From assembly GCF_003260015.1 (NCBI RefSeq), contig NZ_QCXS01000002.1:2356001-2420000 (forward strand): 64,000 bases of DNA, in the 5' to 3' direction. The DNA is from Nakamurella deserti (GTDB lineage Bacteria; Actinomycetota; Actinomycetes; Mycobacteriales; Nakamurellaceae). Shown one piece after another: positions 45,991 to 54,912 of this stretch. A program made the translations under genes and the position numbers. The notes under the pieces were generated by a model. That model saw nothing but the letters and a program-made list of their open reading frames with translations. It made no database searches and was not told the DNA's origin. Every line of letters starts with the position of its first letter. The first letter of the stretch is position 1.

Positions 45991-46021
45991 GCCGGGCGCC
46001 GGACACCGCCCGGCGCCCGGC
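45991..46021 (-). terminator. Terminator after XRE regulator
   Basis: GCCGGGCGCCGG (45991-46002) and its exact complement (46010-46021) form a 12-bp stem with a 7-nt loop, 2 bp beyond the regulator's stop codon on the minus strand. Confidence 0.65.
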
Positions 46022-46023
46022 GG

Positions 46024-46539
46024 TCAGGAGTGCTCGGTGAGCATCCGGCGGAGGTCGGCCGGGCTCACCTGCATGAGGTCGGCGAGAGCGCGCAGGGCGT
46101 CGTTGTCGAGGTTGACGACCTCGTCCTCGGTGGCCTCGGCGGCGCTCCCACGGCGCAGCCCGAACCAGCGGCGCACCGGATCCAGCCGCGGATCGGTGCC
46201 ACGCATCAGCTGGGCGACCCGGACACCGATCGCGTCCGGGGCCTCGTCGGTGACGGCCCCGGCGACCTCGTGCTCGACCAGGGTCAACAGGTGGCCCAGG
46301 TCCTCCCCGAGCGCCCGGGCGATGACCCACAGGACGTCGATCCGCAACGAGCGGTGACCGGTCTCGTAGTTGGCCAGCGCGGCCTTGGAGACCAGACCCT
46401 TGGTCCGGTTGGCCACGTCGGCCTGGGTGAGCTTCTGGCGGCGCCGCGACTCGCGCAGCTTCTCCGTCACGACCTGCGCGAATCGCTGCTGGTCGTTGTT
46501 GGACAACCCCGGATGGCTCGTCATCACCTGCTGCGTCAT
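46024..46539 (-). CDS. XRE-family helix-turn-helix regulator
   Basis: A 171-residue DNA-binding protein. The Cro/C1-type helix-turn-helix (RRQKLTQADVANRTKGLVSKAALANYETG, seen as KLTQADVANRT and SKAALANYETG) lies at about residues 33-65, followed by a helical C-terminal part ending ALADLMQVSPADLRRML. No metal or peptidase domain. AAGAG about 5 nt upstream supports ATG 46539. Its promoter region is the most AT-rich part of the window and carries a perfect inverted repeat, suggesting autoregulation. Target genes are unknown; VanW lies downstream. Confidence 0.87.
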   Translation of the reverse strand: MTQQVMTSHPGLSNNDQQRFAQVVTEKLRESRRRQKLTQADVANRTKGLVSKAALANYETGHRSLRIDVLWVIARALGEDLGHLLTLVEHEVAGAVTDEAPDAIGVRVAQLMRGTDPRLDPVRRWFGLRRGSAAEATEDEVVNLDNDALRALADLMQVSPADLRRMLTEHS

Positions 46540-46791
46540 GGCGACTCTTCCCCTGCGCTGACGATCAGCTGTTCGACGTTGACATCCACCGGTGGTTCCC
46601 CTTGTTCTCGCGCTGTGCACTGAGCCGACTGCAGAACCGACGACCGGTGTCGAGGACGCTCCGATGCCGGCGCCACCGGACCAACCACCTCCGGGAGCAC
46701 CCCGCGGAACCCGCGGTCGGGCGGGACACGGTCCCGTCCACAGCATCACTCCGCCGAACACCTGCGATCGACTCGTTGATTGCTATCACAC

Positions 46792-46826
46792 TATCGGACC
46801 TATAGTAGCGGGGCCGATGTCCGATA
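46792..46826 (-). promoter_or_regulatory. Operator-promoter of XRE regulator
   Basis: TATCGGAC (46792-46799) and GTCCGATA (46819-46826) form a perfect 8-bp inverted repeat with a 19-bp spacer. Inside it, on the minus strand, TACTAT fits a -10 with TGAATA 17 bp before it as -35. A repressor binding the arms would bracket the promoter. Confidence 0.55.
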
Positions 46827-47240
46827 TTCACTCACTTCGCCGAGTTTTTCTCCGCGTTTGACTCCTTCAGCTCGCCCGAGGCACCCGAATGCCATGAATT
46901 CGCTGTGGCATCTCACTATGAGTAACCAGCATAGGGGGCCGGACCGCCCGTGACGAGGGGGTGAAGGATGCGCACGCATGAGCGAGGTGCCGCATCGGTG
47001 ACGCAACGCAGGCGGTGGTGTCACGCGGATCGTCCGAACGGTGAGAGGCACCCACCCGGAGTTCGCGTCTCGACACCGACGACAAAACCGGGCGGAGGGA
47101 CCGGTCTCCGGCGACGACCGGCACAGCAGGTCGCCGGGACATCGGGACGTCGGGACACCCGAACGCCGCAGCCCGGTGGGCGGCTCTCCGGACGGACGGG
47201 CGGTTCGTCGGGACGTCGTGGCCCGCGCGGCGGCGGCCCG
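46827..47240. other. Gene-free gap between efeB and XRE regulator
   Basis: The part from 46827 to about 46935 is unusually AT-rich for this genome and contains a further inverted repeat, ATGCCA-N11-TGGCAT (46889-46911). The remainder is ordinary GC-rich DNA. Short open frames exist but none has a recognisable protein or ribosome site. Confidence 0.5.
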
Positions 47241-48632
47241 TCAGAGGTCGAAGAGCGCCTTGCCGTACCAGTCACCGGGACCGGTCAACCCGGGCGGCAC
47301 GGCGAACAGCGCGCTGCTGACGTGCGCGACGTACTCGTTCATCAGGTCCGACGATCCCAGCCTGGTCTGCACCACGGAGAACTGTTCGTGGGCGTCGCGC
47401 TGGAAGCAGATGAAGAAGAGTCCGGCGTCGAGCAGCCCGGTTCGGCTGTCCTGACCGTCGGTGTAGTTGTAGCCGCGGCGCAGCATCCGGACGCCGCCGT
47501 TCTCCTCCGGGGAGGCGAGCCGCGCGTGGGCGGCGACGTCGATCGCCGGGCCGCTGCCGGTGCCGGCCACGGCGGCGAGGTCCAGCGGGGTGAACTCGGT
47601 GCCGCCCGACAGCGGGGCGCCGGTCGTCTTGACCCGACCGAAGGTGCGTTCCTGGTCGGCCAGCGGCGCCGCGTCCCAGGACTGGATCTCCATCCGGATC
47701 TTGCGGGCCACCAGGTAGCTCCCGCCGACCATCCACGGTTGGTCGGTCGAGGCGTCGACCCAGACGTGCGCGGCGGTGGCCGCGGTGTCGTCGGCGTGGA
47801 TGTTGTTGGTGCCGTCCTTGAAACCGAACAGGTTGCGCGGGGTGGACTGGCCGGCACCGGTGGACGACGCCCGGCCGAACCCGAGCTGGGACCAGCGCAT
47901 GGTGGCCACCCCGCGGGCCGCCCGCGCGAAGTTGCGGATCGCGTGGAACACCACCTGCGGGTCGTCCGCGCAGGCCTGCACGCACAGGTCACCGCCGGAG
48001 ATCTCGGGCCGCAGTACGGAGTCGCCCGGCAGCTGGTCGAGCGGGCGCAACGCCGCGGGCATCTTGGCGGCCAACCCGAACCGCTCGTCGAACATCCCGG
48101 GGCCGAAGCCGACCGTGACGGTGAGCGAGTAGGGGCCCAGATCGGAGGCCTCGCCGGTGTCGGGCGGCGGCTGCTCCGGCCGCACGTCACCGGAGCGGAC
48201 GGGCTGACCGGCGGTGAACCGGGCGGCCATGGCCGCCCAGGTGCCGAGCAGATGGGCCACGGCGACCGGGTCCCCGGTGACCAGGTCGAAGGAGGCGAAC
48301 ATCAGCCGGTCCTGCTGCGCGGTGGTGATACCGGCCTGGTGCTCCCCGTAGAACGGCACGGTGGCCTGGGCGCGCAACGCGTCGAGGTCGGCCAGGGTCA
48401 GCGGCGCCGCGGTGGCCACCGGCGACGGACCCCGCAGCGCCGTCGACGCCGCGACACCTGCGGCGGCGCCGGCCGCCGTCAGGGCGGCGCCACCGAGGAA
48501 GCGACGGCGGCTGGCGCGGCGGGGATCCGACGCGCCCCCGGCGGTGCCGCCCCCGCCGGCCGGATGACCCACCGGACATCCGGTCGGCTCCGGTCCGGCG
48601 GCGGGGGTCGGCGTCCCGTGCTCGCTGGTCAT
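47241..48632 (-). CDS. efeB: Dye-decolourising peroxidase EfeB
   Basis: Haem peroxidase of the EfeUOB system, exported folded by Tat; proposed to oxidise ferrous iron or handle haem outside the membrane. The 463-residue protein has a twin-arginine signal (SRRRFLGG near residue 45) and the DyP GxxDG motif in NLFGFKDGTNN. The probable proximal haem His is in DVAAHARLASP, with Arg in the following MLRRGYNY region. GAGGA 7 nt upstream selects ATG 48632 over a GTG 6 bp further out. Third gene after efeU and efeO. Confidence 0.93.
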   Translation of the reverse strand: MTSEHGTPTPAAGPEPTGCPVGHPAGGGGTAGGASDPRRASRRRFLGGAALTAAGAAAGVAASTALRGPSPVATAAPLTLADLDALRAQATVPFYGEHQAGITTAQQDRLMFASFDLVTGDPVAVAHLLGTWAAMAARFTAGQPVRSGDVRPEQPPPDTGEASDLGPYSLTVTVGFGPGMFDERFGLAAKMPAALRPLDQLPGDSVLRPEISGGDLCVQACADDPQVVFHAIRNFARAARGVATMRWSQLGFGRASSTGAGQSTPRNLFGFKDGTNNIHADDTAATAAHVWVDASTDQPWMVGGSYLVARKIRMEIQSWDAAPLADQERTFGRVKTTGAPLSGGTEFTPLDLAAVAGTGSGPAIDVAAHARLASPEENGGVRMLRRGYNYTDGQDSRTGLLDAGLFFICFQRDAHEQFSVVQTRLGSSDLMNEYVAHVSSALFAVPPGLTGPGDWYGKALFDL

Positions 48633-48703
48633 GCTCACATCCTCGTCGGGTGGTGCGGTGGCGCCCCCGGGGAGACGTCCCGCGGGGAACCGGACCGGGT
48701 CGG

Positions 48704-49969
48704 TCAGGCGGTGGCGATCTTGGACGGCACCACCGACAGCGGCTCGATGACCGTCGACAGCGCGTTGGACAGCTCGGTGATCTGGGCGTCGGTGAGGTCG
48801 TCGTAGAGGGTGAACCCGCCGACGGCGGCCGGGTCGCGGTGGGTGTCCAGCAGCGCGAGCAGGGTGTCGAACCGGGTGCCGACGTCGGTCACCAGGGCCG
48901 GGTCGATCTCGTTCAACGCCGGCTTGAGGGCGGCGAAGGCCTGCAGCGAGCCCTCGACGTTGGCCTGGAAGTCCAACAGGTCGATCTTGGAGTAGAACTC
49001 CTCCTCGCCGGTGATCTTGCTGGCCTGCACCTCGCCGAGCAGCGCCACGGCGCCGTTGGCGACCTCGTCGACCAGGTAGCGGTCGCCGTCGGCGGCGTCG
49101 GCGCGGGTGTTGGCCGACAGCTCCGCGGTGCGTGACTGCAGCTCACCGATGTCGGTGACGAGGGTGGCGGCGAGCTTCTCCGCACCCACCGTGGTCCCGC
49201 CCTCGAACAGCAGCTGCTCGATGGGGTGGAAGCCGGTCCAGGCGGCGGGGTCCCCGACGTCGCCGATGCGCAGGTCGATGGCCGGGTCGAGGTCGCCGAA
49301 GGACTCGGCGACGGGCTCGATCCGCTCGTAGTACGGGCGGGCGGCGGCGTAGGCGTTCTGCGCCGCGGTCAGGTCACCGGCGTCGATCGCGGTCTGCAGA
49401 GCGGCGACCGCCTCGGTGAGGAACCCGACCTGGGAGTCGATGTAGTCGGCGTAGTCCACGGTGGCCTGCTGCAGCAGCGCGGCGGTGTCCCCGGAGCTCA
49501 CGGCGGCCTCGCCGGTCACGGTGAACGGCGTCCGGTCGGTGCTCGCGCCCGGGCAGTACAACTCGTAGCTGCCGCCGTCGAGGGTGGCGGTGAAGGTGGC
49601 GTCGAAGCCGGGGGCCAGGTTCTCGCGCTCGCCGCGGATGCGCTGGTCCGACAGCAGTTCGACCTCGCTCACGCCGACCGCGTCGACGTTGGTCACGTTG
49701 AACGTGACCGCTCCGGCCGGGACCGTGTCGGGGGTGGCGACGCACCCACCGGCGTCGGTGACGGCGACGGCCACCACGGCCTCCCCGGCCGGACCGGTGG
49801 CCGCCGGAGCCGCGGACGTCGTGGCGTCGGTACTCGTCGCAGCGGCGGGCGCGGGGGACGCTCCGGACGCGGCGGAACCACACCCGGCGAGCACGACGCC
49901 GGCGAGGGCGACGGCGGTGGCGGTACGCAGGCGGGGTGCGCGGCGGCGGGTCGACGTTGCGGAGGACAT
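48704..49969 (-). CDS. efeO: Iron-uptake lipoprotein EfeO
   Basis: Extracytoplasmic iron-binding component of EfeUOB, 421 residues. A lipoprotein signal ends in LAGC (Cys about 30). Then comes a Thr/Ala/Ser-rich linker, a cupredoxin-like domain (about 60-150, with the CVATP start and ELYCPGAS) and an M75/imelysin domain with the HxxE metal motif in GFHPIEQLLFEGG. It lies 71 bp before efeB. Both domains are kept, unlike the M75-only EfeM-type proteins. Confidence 0.93.
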   Translation of the reverse strand: MSSATSTRRRAPRLRTATAVALAGVVLAGCGSAASGASPAPAAATSTDATTSAAPAATGPAGEAVVAVAVTDAGGCVATPDTVPAGAVTFNVTNVDAVGVSEVELLSDQRIRGERENLAPGFDATFTATLDGGSYELYCPGASTDRTPFTVTGEAAVSSGDTAALLQQATVDYADYIDSQVGFLTEAVAALQTAIDAGDLTAAQNAYAAARPYYERIEPVAESFGDLDPAIDLRIGDVGDPAAWTGFHPIEQLLFEGGTTVGAEKLAATLVTDIGELQSRTAELSANTRADAADGDRYLVDEVANGAVALLGEVQASKITGEEEFYSKIDLLDFQANVEGSLQAFAALKPALNEIDPALVTDVGTRFDTLLALLDTHRDPAAVGGFTLYDDLTDAQITELSNALSTVIEPLSVVPSKIATA

Positions 49970-50032
49970 GGCGGGACTCTTTCTGCAGGGTTCAGGGCGG
50001 AGCGGGGCGGCGCCGGGCGCGCGCCCGGGGGG

Positions 50033-51691
50033 TCAGCGGGTGCCGGCGGGTTCCGGCCGGCGGACCGGCGGCGGTGCGGCCGGCGCGGCGGGTCGGCGGA
50101 GCGCGAGCCGCAGGCCGGCGGCGAACAGCACCAGGGCGGCGACGCCGAGCAGGGCGGGGACGACCTGTCCCCAGACCTCGGCCCGCTGCCGGGCGGCGTC
50201 ACCCGCCGCCGCGGCGGCGAGCCGCCCGGCGGCCACGGCCGGGGTGGCGGCGGTGGTGACGTCGGCGACGACACCGACCGAGACGGAGACCCCGGTGGAG
50301 TTGACCACCTGCAGGGAGCGGACCAGCCGCGTCTGCGCGTCGAGCACGACACCGGACGCGGGATCGACGCTCACCGTCACCCGCCAGGAGTCGAGCCAGG
50401 TGGCCGGCAGGTCCGCGGAGCTGTCGGCACCGGTCAGGCCGATGGGTAACCGCCCGCCGGTGAGGGCGGTGATGTCGGCGCCGGAGACCGTGACCGGCAG
50501 CGCGCCACCGGCGCCCCCGGTCGACGGTGCGGCGGCCTCGTACCGGTTGACGGTCACGCCGTCGACGACGGCGGCGCCGGCCAGCGTCATCGTCACGTCG
50601 CCACCGACCGCGAAGGACGCGTCGGAACCGGCGTCGGCGGTCGCGGTGACCGTGGCCTGCAGACTCGCACCGGTGAGCTGCCGCACGGTCACGGCGGTGA
50701 CCCCGCTGTAGCTGCGGTCGGCGTCCGCGCCGCGGCCGGCGCCGACACCGACCACGTCCAGGTCCACCGCCGAGGTACCGACGGGGCCGGCGGGGACCAG
50801 CGCGACGAGGAGCACCGCCACCGCGGCCAGCCCGGCACCGGCACCCAGGACGAGCTTCGCGGCGGCCGGCCGGCGCAGTCGGCGGGTGCGCGGCCACAGC
50901 ACGATCGCCAGCATCGGCACCACGTAGAGCAGCCAGGCGACGACCTGCACGACGACCGGCTGTGGCTGGACGCCCAGCACCCCACCGAGGAGCGACGCCT
51001 GGATCGAGCCCGGCCGCACGAGCCGGCCGAGATCGGCGACCGGCTGCTGGCCGACGGTGAGCCAGGCCGCCTCGTGGGCGGCCTGCAGCGCCGACATCAC
51101 CAGCCCTCCGGCGACCAGCACCAGCACGACGCCGGTGACGCGGAAGAAGCGGGACAGGTCGAGGCGGGTGCCGCCGCGGTAGACGAGGTATCCGAGCACG
51201 ACGGCCACGGCCAGGCCCAGCACGACGCCGCCGGCCGCGGCGACCGGCGACACCGCCGCCCCGAACGCCGCCAGCAGGAACACCGAGGTCTCGAAGCCCT
51301 CGCGCAGCACGGCCAGGAAGGCCATCGACACCAGCGCCCAGGACGAGCCGCGGGCCAGCGCCCCCGCGGCGGCCGTCTCGAGCTCGCCCTTCAGCCCCCG
51401 GGAGTGGCTGTTCATCCACAGGATCATGTAGGTGACCATCACCACGGCGACGACCGCGACGATGCACTCGAGCATCTCCTGCTGGCGCTGCGGCAGGTGC
51501 GCGTTGACCGCCGACAATGCGATGCCCCCGGCGAGGCAGATGGCGACGGCGGCGCCGACACCGACCCACATCCGGCGCAGTGCCCGGGAGGCGTCGGCAC
51601 CCGCGTTGCGACGCAGGAACGCGGCCACGATGCCGACGATGAGGGAGGCCTCGAGGCCTTCGCGCAGCCCGATGACGAACGTGGTGAGCAC
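50033..51691 (-). CDS. efeU: Ferrous-iron permease EfeU with C-terminal extension
   Basis: Membrane iron permease of the OFeT/FTR1 family. The first ~300 residues hold seven hydrophobic segments with both REGLE-type motifs (REGLE at 10-14, REGFE at 130-134) that move iron. A typical EfeU ends there; this chain continues to 552 residues with a ~210-residue extracytoplasmic beta-rich domain and a final membrane helix (about 515-535). That extra domain resembles DUF3068/PorA-like regions in its strand pattern, but the match is uncertain. GTG 51691 has GGGAA close by. First gene of efeUOB, behind tandem iron boxes. Confidence 0.9.
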   Translation of the reverse strand: MLTTFVIGLREGLEASLIVGIVAAFLRRNAGADASRALRRMWVGVGAAVAICLAGGIALSAVNAHLPQRQQEMLECIVAVVAVVMVTYMILWMNSHSRGLKGELETAAAGALARGSSWALVSMAFLAVLREGFETSVFLLAAFGAAVSPVAAAGGVVLGLAVAVVLGYLVYRGGTRLDLSRFFRVTGVVLVLVAGGLVMSALQAAHEAAWLTVGQQPVADLGRLVRPGSIQASLLGGVLGVQPQPVVVQVVAWLLYVVPMLAIVLWPRTRRLRRPAAAKLVLGAGAGLAAVAVLLVALVPAGPVGTSAVDLDVVGVGAGRGADADRSYSGVTAVTVRQLTGASLQATVTATADAGSDASFAVGGDVTMTLAGAAVVDGVTVNRYEAAAPSTGGAGGALPVTVSGADITALTGGRLPIGLTGADSSADLPATWLDSWRVTVSVDPASGVVLDAQTRLVRSLQVVNSTGVSVSVGVVADVTTAATPAVAAGRLAAAAAGDAARQRAEVWGQVVPALLGVAALVLFAAGLRLALRRPAAPAAPPPVRRPEPAGTR

Positions 51692-51772
51692 GGGTTCCCT
51701 GCTTCCGCTACGACCGGGGGCATCCGGTCGGGTCGCGCTCCGGCCGGGGCACCCGGGGCCGGTCAGCGGACC

Positions 51773-51828
51773 TTAGGCAGCCCTAACTGAGCTGAGGCTA
51801 ACACAACACTGAGCTGAGGCTAACACAA
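51773..51828 (-). promoter_or_regulatory. Tandem IdeR/DtxR-like iron boxes
   Basis: TGAGCTGAGGCTAACACAA occurs at 51788-51806 and again at 51810-51828 inside a perfect 22-bp tandem duplication (51786-51829). Each matches the IdeR/DtxR consensus TTAGGTTAGGCTAACCTAA at 14 of 19 positions. A third, weaker site starts TTAGGCAGCCCTAA at 51773. Iron-loaded repressor here would shut off efeUOB; peptide deformylase diverges from the same gap. Confidence 0.75.
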
Positions 51829-51923
51829 CCTTTCACGCCCACCGAGGCCCCGGGAAGGTGGCGCGGACCACCCTGTTGCGGTGTCGCCGGACCCCTGCCG
51901 GACCGGGCGATAAGCTCCCGGGA

Positions 51924-52496
51924 ATGACCATCCGGCCCATCGTGATCTGCGGTGAACCCGTCCTGCACCGCCCGACGACCCCGGTGACGGTGTTCGACGA
52001 CGAGTTGAAGACCTTCGTCGACGACCTGTTCGAGACCAACACCGCCGCGCACGGCGCGGGGCTCGCCGCCAACCAGGTCGGCGACCCCCGGCGGGTGTTC
52101 ATCTACGACTGCCCCGACGACGAGGGGGTGCGCCACCGCGGGTACGTCGTCAATCCGTCGATCACCACGTCGCCGGTACCGGAGACCATGCCCGACCCGG
52201 ACGACGACTGGGAGGGCTGCCTGTCGGTGCCCGGCGAGAACTACCCCACGGGCCGGGCGACCTGGGCCAGGGTCACCGGCGTCGACACCGACAACCAGCC
52301 CGTCGAGGTCGAGGGCACCGGGTTCTTCGCGCGCTGCCTGCAACACGAGGTCGACCACCTCGACGGCTTCCTCTACACCGACCGCCTCATCGGCCGGCAC
52401 CTGCGCGCGGCTCGCAAGATGATCAAGGCCAACGGCTGGACCCGACCCGGACTGACCTGGATGCCCGGGGTGGACGAGGACCCGTTCGGCCACTGA
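51924..52496 (+). CDS. def: Peptide deformylase
   Basis: Removes the N-formyl group from nascent proteins, using a metal ion. The 190-residue protein has all three deformylase motifs: [10 protein letters not shown] near residue 48, EGCLSVPG near 94 with the metal Cys, and QHEVDHLDG near 140 with the two metal His and catalytic Glu. The ATG at 51924 is preceded by a short GGGA. A C-terminal Trp/Arg-containing tail is usual in actinomycetes. Divergent from efeU. Confidence 0.94.
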
Positions 52497-52656
52497 GCAG
52501 GCGCGACGCCGCCGCCACGGCCGGCACCACCGGACCGGCGATCCGTCGCCGGGACGTCTCGCCGACCGCCGGATCGGTTGCGCCGTCCCGGGTTTGCCCG
52601 TGGCCGATCCGGACGGGCGGCCGACCCGTCGGGGGCACGACGATAGGGTTGCGGTC

Positions 52657-54912
52657 GTGACGGCCACCGAGAGTCCTGCCCGGTCCACCGCGTCGATGGT
52701 GGTGGTGGCGAACCGGCTGCCGTTCGACATCGAGAAGCACGCCGACGGGACGACCACCACGCACCAGTCTCCCGGCGGCCTCGTCACCGCCCTCGAACCG
52801 ATCCTGAGCCGGCGCGCCGGTGCCTGGATCGGCTGGACCGGGACGGCCGACCACGACCTCGAACCCGTCCTCGCCGACCAGCTGACCCTGGAGCCGGTGA
52901 CGCTCTCGGCCGACGAGGTGCAGCAGTACTACGAGGGCTTCTCCAACGGCACGCTGTGGCCGCTCTACCACGACGCGGTCGCCGGGTCGGAGTTCCACCG
53001 GGACTGGTGGGAGCGCTACGTCGAGGTGAACCAGCGCTTCGCCGACCGGGCGGCCGAGGTGGCCGCGCCCGGCGCGACGGTGTGGGTGCACGACTACCAG
53101 CTGCAGCTGGTGCCGGCGATGCTGCGCGCGCTGCGCAGCGACGTCCGGATCGGCTTCTTCCTGCACATCCCGTTCCCGCCCGCCGAGCTGTTCAACCGGT
53201 TGCCGTGGCGCACCCAGATCATCAGGGGCCTCCTCGGGGCCGACCTCATCGGCTTCCAGCTGCCCGGCGGCGCCCGCAACTTCGCGCGGCTCGCCCGCAC
53301 GTTGGTGGACGTCACCGGCAAGGGACACCGGCTGTTCTACGAGGGACGCACCGTCCGGGTGGACGCGTTCCCCATCTCCATCGACTCGTCGGCGCTGGCC
53401 GACCTGGCCGCCGAGCCGGAGGTGCTGGAGCGGGCCAAGCAGCTGCGCGCCGAGCTGGGCAACCCCCGGCGGATCATCCTCGGCGTCGACCGGCTCGACT
53501 ACACCAAGGGCATCAACGTCCGGCTGCAGGCGTTCCAGGAGCTGCTCGCCGAGAAGGACCCGTCGGTCGAGGGCACCGTGATGGTGCAGATCGCGACGCC
53601 CAGCCGGGAGCGGCTGGAGTCCTACATCCGGATGCGCGAGGAGATCGAGCGCCAGGTCGGGGCGATCAACGGCAACTACGGCCGGATCGGCGCCCCCGCC
53701 GTGCACTACCTGCACCAGTCCCTCCCCCGCGAGGACCTGTCGGCGTTCTACGCGGCCGCCGACGTGATGACCGTGACGCCGCTGCGCGACGGGATGAACC
53801 TGGTGGCCAAGGAGTACGTCGCGGCCCGGGTGAACGGCGGCGGGGTGCTGCTGCTCAGCGAGTTCACCGGTGCCGCCAAGGAACTCAAGACCGCATTGAT
53901 GGTCAACCCCTACGACACCGACGGGGTCAAGGAGGCGCTGCGGACGGCGCTGACGATGCCGCCGGCCGAGGCCCGCCGCCGGATGCGCTCGATGCGGCGC
54001 CATGTCCTGGTCAACGACGTCGACAAGTGGGCGCGCCGCTACCTCACGGTGCTGGAGGGCCAGCCCGACCAGCTCACCGACGCCGCCGGCCGGTTGCCCG
54101 CCGACGTGCTCACGGCCATGCACGACGTCGCGGGCACCACCCGGCTGCTGGTGGCCGTGGACTTCGACGGCACGTTGGCGCCGATCGTCGACGACCCGGC
54201 GGCGGCGCGGCCGCTGCCGCGGTCCATGGAGGCACTGCACCAGTTGGCCTCGGTGACCGGCACCGAGGTGTGCGTCATCTCCGGCCGGGCCCGCGCGCTG
54301 CTGCCGGAGCTGCTGGACGACGACGTCAGCGACCTGCACCTGGTCGGCAGTCACGGCGCCGAGGGCGTCGACGCCGATGTGGCCGCCGAGGGCACGCTGG
54401 AGTTGACCCCGACCGCCCGCAAGCGGCTCGGCGAGCTGCTGCGGTCGCTGCAGCAGATCGCCGCCGAACACCACGGGGTGACGCTGGAGATCAAGCCGAC
54501 CGGCGTGGCGGTGCACCTGCGCGGCGCCACCGAACGCGCCGCCGCCGCGGTCGCGGCCGAGGTGGAGGACGGCCCGGCCACCTGGCCCGGCGTGCACCTG
54601 CTGCGCGGCAAGCAGGTGCTCGAGCTCACCGTCATCTCCACCGACAAGGGCCGGGCCGTGGAGGCGCTGCGCAAGCAGTACCACGCGACCGCGGTGATCT
54701 ACGTCGGCGACGACATCACCGACGAGAACGCGTTCGGGGCGCTGCGTCCCGGCGATCTCGGGATCAAGGTCGGCGGCGGCACCACGTCGGCCGACGTGCG
54801 GGTCGCCGACCCGGGAGCGGTCGCCGACCTGCTCACCGTGCTGACGTCCATCCGGCAACGGGTCAGCCGCCGGCTGGCCGCGAACGCGGCCGACGTCGAC
54901 GACGAGGACTGA
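52657..54912 (+). CDS. otsA-otsB: Bifunctional trehalose-6-phosphate synthase/phosphatase (OtsA-OtsB fusion)
   Basis: Both steps of trehalose synthesis in one 751-residue chain. The GT20 synthase half (about 1-465) shows NRLPF near residue 19, HDYQLQLVP near 145, [10 protein letters not shown] near 275 and [13 protein letters not shown] near 377. The HAD phosphatase half (about 495-745) has DFDGTLAPI near 502 with the nucleophile Asp and [10 protein letters not shown] near 684. The start is GTG 52657; an ATG 39 bp later at the MVVVANRLP segment is possible. otsA and otsB are more often separate genes in actinomycetes. Confidence 0.93.

Follow-up and report, generated by a model that had tools for sequence, protein, structure and literature searches.

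Iron passage through permeases of the FTR1 family involves paired glutamate residues. In E. coli, the EfeU permease of the EfeUOB system (YcdN type) is a protein of 276 amino acid residues with seven transmembrane segments, as described in PMC9174327; the role of EfeO/M is called unclear in the same source, and the hand-off of iron from EfeO to EfeU is not settled. EfeO fused to an N-terminal EfeU-like permease has already been noted (PMC3143127). A second protein of importance here is MSMEG_0317 of M. smegmatis, which is named both LmcA and PgfA. Under the name LmcA, it has been reported to form a barrel of elongated shape that encloses cavities, has a proposed lipid-binding function and resembles the CD36 superfamily (PMC8972800). 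Under the name PgfA, it has been reported to bind TMM in the periplasm, to partner MmpL3 and to be cross-linked by a TMM analogue (PMC9678360). The latter source calls the DUF3068 family exclusively actinobacterial.

The gene presented here lies in a window of 64,000 nucleotides (64 kb) of Nakamurella deserti, which is the whole stretch of DNA that was analysed. It belongs to an efeU-efeO-efeB operon on the minus strand (51691-47241). As in E. coli, an FTR1 permease with conserved glutamates is followed by efeO and efeB; however, the Nakamurella EfeU has 552 residues, with nine membrane helices in the predicted model. The features of the locus are as follows:

51788-51828, no strand assigned: two tandem DtxR/IdeR-like sites, TTGTGTTAGCCTCAGCTCA, in tandem 22-bp repeats of the efeU promoter, resembling the DtxR/IdeR consensus at 14 of 19 positions
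50033-51691, minus strand: efeU, 552 residues, FTR1 permease with an LmcA-like C-terminal domain (open reading frame, Pfam and NCBIfam matches)
50894-51691, minus strand: FTR1/EfeU permease, residues 1-266 (Pfam, NCBIfam, 56-row alignment)
50798-50872, minus strand: predicted helix TM8, residues 274-298 (model), preceded by a basic linker (sequence)
50243-50797, minus strand: predicted extracytoplasmic eight-stranded barrel of LmcA/DUF3068 fold, residues 299-483 (models, fold comparison, PF11271)
50438-50458, minus strand: GGRLPIG, residues 412-418, the top conservation within the extension (56-row alignment)
50099-50242, minus strand: predicted long helix, residues 484-531, with TM9 as its C-terminal half and a basic, proline-rich tail after it (model)
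48704-49969, minus strand: efeO, with the M75/imelysin domain at residues 170-407, a match to the EfeO model from residue 56, a lipoprotein-type signal with an LAGC lipobox (Pfam, NCBIfam, sequence) and an N-terminal part that is presumably the cupredoxin domain of the family
47241-48638, minus strand: efeB, DyP-type peroxidase/deferrochelatase subunit (TIGR01412, 463.1 against a cut-off of 428 bits)

The permease is intact. The Pfam FTR1 model PF03239 spans residues 1-266 with an E-value of 1.3e-54 and 185.9 bits (cut-off 25.3), and the NCBIfam equivalog NF041756 for EfeU is passed with 287.8 against 255 bits; the cut-off of the older subfamily TIGR00145 is missed (204 against 303.8 bits). 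Residues Glu11, Glu14, Glu72, Glu75, Glu131, Glu134 and Glu207 each have a weighted conservation of more than 90% across the 56 aligned rows. The start codon is GTG, in register with the starts of the relatives. After the permease, about 285 residues follow in one open frame. The same frame is found in 17 other genomes, which were picked because their match spans the extension (39 of 61 genomes had a match), and in 56 of 80 genome loci; its retention across relatives rules out a frameshift or read-through artefact. The preliminary description took known EfeU proteins to end after about 280 residues. This is correct for the E. coli protein of 276 residues and seven transmembrane segments (PMC9174327), but it does not hold as a general rule.

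AlphaFold2 models were built with 56 sequences, and both were predicted confidently: the mean pLDDT is 89.8 with a pTM of 0.73 for the whole EfeU, and 90.1 with a pTM of 0.81 for the extension. The extracytoplasmic beta-rich domain that had been read from the letters is thus borne out, as a predicted barrel. The same description added one membrane helix. Extra helices are indeed present in the model, but there are two of them, TM8 and the TM9 part of helix 484-531, and the span of 50033-50800 given to the added part leaves TM8 (50872-50798) almost wholly outside. The basic stretches that follow TM7 and TM9 in the sequence indicate that these two ends are cytoplasmic and that the barrel is outside; the linker ahead of TM8, being basic, is probably cytoplasmic. 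The model shows an elongated barrel with a C-terminal helix that continues into a transmembrane helix, as in DUF3068/PorA proteins.

In a Foldseek search of the PDB with the extension, the only matches with E-values of 0.001 or below were the four LmcA chains of M. smegmatis in 7n3v and 7shw (4.8e-9 to 3.3e-8, probability 1.00, TM-score 0.43-0.46), and the same four chains were found with the whole EfeU at 2.3e-7 to 1.4e-6. VIA-align superposes the extension on LmcA with a Z of 11.0 and an rmsd of 4.2 over 185 residues, which is the entire barrel. The next rows are OmpA with a Z of 8.4 and a Bacteroides outer-membrane protein with 8.1, followed by nitrobindin and PsbO barrels near 5; all of these were judged to reflect a general likeness of barrels and were rejected as relatives. 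The proteins of the CD36/LIMP-2 superfamily also follow a helix-barrel-helix plan. Chains of LIMP-2 and CD36 align with the extension at a Z of 5.1-5.7 over 142-157 residues, which is below the unrelated OmpA and in a range, under 8, that perhaps means a mere shared arrangement, and no sequence relation between them and the extension was seen. The fold of the extension is therefore predicted to be that of LmcA/DUF3068.

The sequences lead to the same family. The extension scanned alone matches PF11271 (PorA/DUF3068) with 33.7 bits, above the gathering cut-off of 29.5, as the preliminary description had guessed. In a search of the genome EfeU was matched at 33.3 bits, with no second PF11271 match in the genome by this profile, and PF11271 was not listed when the whole EfeU was scanned. 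Among the 56 extensions, 24 match PF11271 at E-values of 1 or below, and 16 match the PgfA model NF053601 at 0.01 or below. The extension of the window itself matches NF053601 with an E-value of 2.2e-8 and 33.9 bits; the curated cut-off of 160 bits rules out a close PgfA orthologue. The profile of the 56 extensions aligned with that of 21 stand-alone DUF3068 proteins gave an E-value of 2.2e-9 over the C-terminal part, and 4.8e-8 when only the 18 closest sequences were used. In the reverse direction, the 56-extension profile was run over 396 genomes. Two of the 52 matches listed are extended EfeU; of the others, 24 of the 27 matches to the C-terminal part of the profile fall on PF11271 genes, while none of the 23 matches to the TM8 part does.

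The extension is thus homologous to LmcA/DUF3068. It is a divergent relative and not a full-length member, since the alignment covers only positions 161-296 of the 297 in PF11271; for the first half of that model, the extension shows no match by sequence. A search for solved structures by sequence gave only chance-like matches for the extension profile, none of them LmcA and none with an E-value below 0.037, and nothing at 1 or below for the EfeU alignment, whereas the alignment of stand-alone DUF3068 proteins recovered LmcA in the same kind of search. The extension shares with LmcA/PgfA the order of helix, extracytoplasmic beta-barrel and helix, the predicted fold, and sequence similarity over the C-terminal half. 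It differs in that it is joined to an iron permease, in that its barrel has about 185 residues compared with 254-266 in the LmcA chains, and in that its N-terminal half is not recognisable by sequence and its score is far below the PgfA cut-off.

The extension is not peculiar to this genome. Among the best 80 of 298 relatives, 56 loci are extended and 23 short, and in the remaining one (L084) EfeU is fused to EfeO; these loci are the best relatives of an extended query, so the fraction is not a frequency. Within the genus Nakamurella, EfeU was found in 13 of 17 sampled genomes, including that of the window, and all 13 are extended. Other extended loci occur in Gordonia, Tsukamurella, Curtobacterium, Microbacterium, Arthrobacter, Subtercola, Humibacter, Luteimicrobium, Streptacidiphilus, Actinoplanes and others. 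At least 150 of the 298 genomes of the order have a match to EfeU, and in 24 of them the match also spans the extension; with G483, extended by profile, and G556, cut by a contig end, which can be added, at least 25 of 150 matching genomes are extended. The preliminary description would have counted as refuted by an extension that is common in actinobacterial EfeU and has a known role. The first half holds in several lineages, but not across evenly sampled genomes of the phylum, where FTR1 is present in 102 of 396 genomes and a strong adjoining match to the extension in two of these (G000, G440). No role for the extension was found in the literature searched, in which few subscription journals were covered and the extended architecture of EfeU is not described.

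Most of the 56 extended loci are actinobacterial, but six lie in proteobacterial records, in contrast to the range given for DUF3068 in PMC9678360. Two are Rahnella strains with DSM numbers (L129, L140), one is Acidisoma (L128) and three are MAGs (L086, L136, L137). These extensions score 155-199 bits against a profile of the 51 non-proteobacterial rows. In all six records the G+C content of efeU is slightly higher than that of its flanks, which fits transfer without demonstrating it. No relative of the whole EfeU was found in viral contigs in a search for close relatives, and plasmids gave no match to the extension at an E-value of 0.001 or below. A second weak match in G001 (L183) was dropped, having no match to the extension profile. 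In one MAG (L094, 5605-6161) the extended EfeU has no EfeO downstream and is followed by what appears by eye to be a collapsed efeO/efeB remnant, either a deletion or an assembly fault.

A tree of 98 FTR1 domains, made by a quick method with SH-aLRT support only and with many weak forks, requires four changes of the label "extended", compared with a mean of 31.5 for shuffled labels. This suggests that the extension passed on mainly by descent and was seldom gained or lost. EfeU and EfeO are fused in one frame in five loci (L084, L174, L175, L176 and L178), at three separate places in the tree. Those of G032, G570 and G617 (L174, L175 and L176) sit together on a distant branch of EfeU, L084 is on yet another branch, and the G544 fusion (L178) is nested inside the extended group with supports of 82 for a group of 15 rows, 99 for one of five rows and 91 for the pairing with its extended sister L020. 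All fusions resemble the extended EfeU in having an extracytoplasmic domain on the C-terminus of the permease and differ in that this domain is EfeO and not an LmcA-like barrel. In G544 the barrel is absent and EfeO follows directly after a linking helix, which resembles TM8 of L020 and L182 and can also be aligned with an EfeO signal peptide; this genome is 76% complete. In G660 a short EfeU (C1:2126318-2127115) pairs in the tree with an extended one, on a long branch, and the only imelysin match of the genome (4249479-4250138) lies 2.1 Mb away.

The conservation of the extension is uneven. In the 56-row alignment the mean JSD is 0.585 for the FTR1 domain, 0.306 for the barrel and 0.453 for the segment 404-424. 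Pro416 and Gly418 are invariant in all 56 rows and, together with Arg414 and Gly413, make up the four top columns of the extension; the best columns after these are Pro300 and Pro512, near the membrane ends. Counting strands from TM8 in the model would place the GGRxPxG motif as a cap at the membrane-distal end of the barrel. No column of Asp, Glu, His, Cys or Met in the extension exceeds 68% by weight in the 56 rows, the highest being Asp451. That no metal ligand is conserved argues against the barrel handling iron alone. An iron-binding domain is thus unsupported and, as judged from these columns, the barrel would hardly bind iron.

The neighbourhood of the gene was also compared. EfeO lies directly downstream in 54 of the 56 extended loci, including three in which the homology starts upstream of the efeU stop codon, by 4-58 bases. 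The operon includes EfeB in 54 of the 56. EfeO also adjoins 22 of the 23 short EfeU, which means that an EfeU can use EfeO without having the barrel. Pairwise distances were correlated in 54 loci: between the extension and EfeO the partial r is 0.52 given FTR1 and 0.39 given EfeB, and between the extension and EfeB it is 0.37 given FTR1 and 0.16 given EfeO. EfeO and EfeB are closer to each other (0.73 given FTR1) than either is to the extension, and the test is weak because of this stronger tie, of shared descent and of differing saturation.

These observations allow us to propose, tentatively and with close to an even chance, that the DUF3068/LmcA-type unit on EfeU is a dock, likeliest for EfeO. 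A unit of helix, extracytoplasmic barrel and helix, joined to the cytoplasmic C-terminus of the permease, would hold the barrel over the permease mouth. The conserved distal cap GGRxPxG could then be the docking site, most likely for EfeO; docking would concentrate this iron carrier locally, and EfeO might hand its iron to the FTR1 glutamates. The position of EfeO after almost every extended efeU is consistent with this, although it has the same position after the short ones. The distances of the extension follow EfeO beyond FTR1 more closely than they follow EfeB, but in the weak test described above. The top conservation is in the cap, and no metal ligand is conserved. In G544, EfeO is covalently attached in the place of the barrel; however, this is a single incomplete genome, and its linking helix possibly derives from the EfeO signal peptide and not from TM8. 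The short EfeU of G660 has its only imelysin gene far away, but its branch is long. The EfeU proteins with the barrel, without it, or with EfeO fused form a natural series in which the hand-off could be tested by truncation.

Alternatively, the cavity of the barrel might bind an amphiphile, either an envelope lipid or a porphyrin or haem linked to EfeB, and so link the import of iron with the handling of lipid or haem. The fold match with LmcA (Z 11.0) favours this, as do the enclosed cavities and proposed lipid-binding function of LmcA (PMC8972800) and the cross-linking of PgfA by a TMM analogue (PMC9678360). It is nevertheless unlikely: the extension reaches only 33.9 of the 160 bits of the PgfA model, its barrel is shorter than the LmcA chains, and the mean conservation of the ectodomain is low with its peak in the distal cap. 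In addition, since the extension occurs in proteobacterial records, a ligand specific to mycolates could not be the general one.

The extension could also be a gate, a stabiliser or an oligomerisation module of the permease that is indifferent to EfeO and EfeB. A membrane protein that gains two helices, and the occurrence of short EfeU proteins, which lack the extension, in operons of this type, would both suit such a role. We consider it improbable in view of the EfeO gene adjoining 54 of 56 extended loci (but 22 of 23 short ones too) and of the one relative in which EfeO replaces the barrel.

A more far-reaching version, which we hold to be distinctly improbable, is that a CD36/LmcA-type tunnel has been recruited as a covalent periplasmic entry to the permease, where its cavity would guide an amphiphilic iron source or product (haem or porphyrin from EfeB, or a lipid-like chelator) or would sense an envelope lipid; if true, this would be the first domain of the type known to act in metal import. 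That the barrel docks the peroxidase/deferrochelatase EfeB and not EfeO is very unlikely, in spite of EfeB being in the operon of 54 of 56 extended loci, because the extension follows EfeB at 0.16 given EfeO compared with 0.39 for EfeO given EfeB, and the covalent partner of EfeU here is EfeO, in fusions of the kind noted in PMC3143127. In any case, the LmcA fold, hitherto tied to lipid and lipoglycan handling in mycobacteria, extends by prediction to iron import and to proteobacterial records.

EfeB scores 16.1 bits against a generic Tat signal model, just below the cut-off of 16.7. Nothing was found by Rfam at gathering scores within 46000-53000. The window was scanned with the DtxR/IdeR consensus. 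No site with three or fewer mismatches occurs in the window, but the two tandem sites have 5 mismatches in 19 positions each and an overlapping third has 6; the 64 kb contain no further site with up to six mismatches. Shuffled windows (10 shuffles) contain on average 0.4 sites with 6 mismatches and none with fewer. These DtxR/IdeR-like sites support iron control of the efeUOB operon. A DUF3068 gene has a metal-related neighbourhood in C. diphtheriae as well: the zinc/Zur-responsive cluster dip0438-dip0445, which encodes a metal ABC transporter, ends with the DUF3068 gene dip0445, as described in PMC6711530, a hint that the family can accompany metal import.
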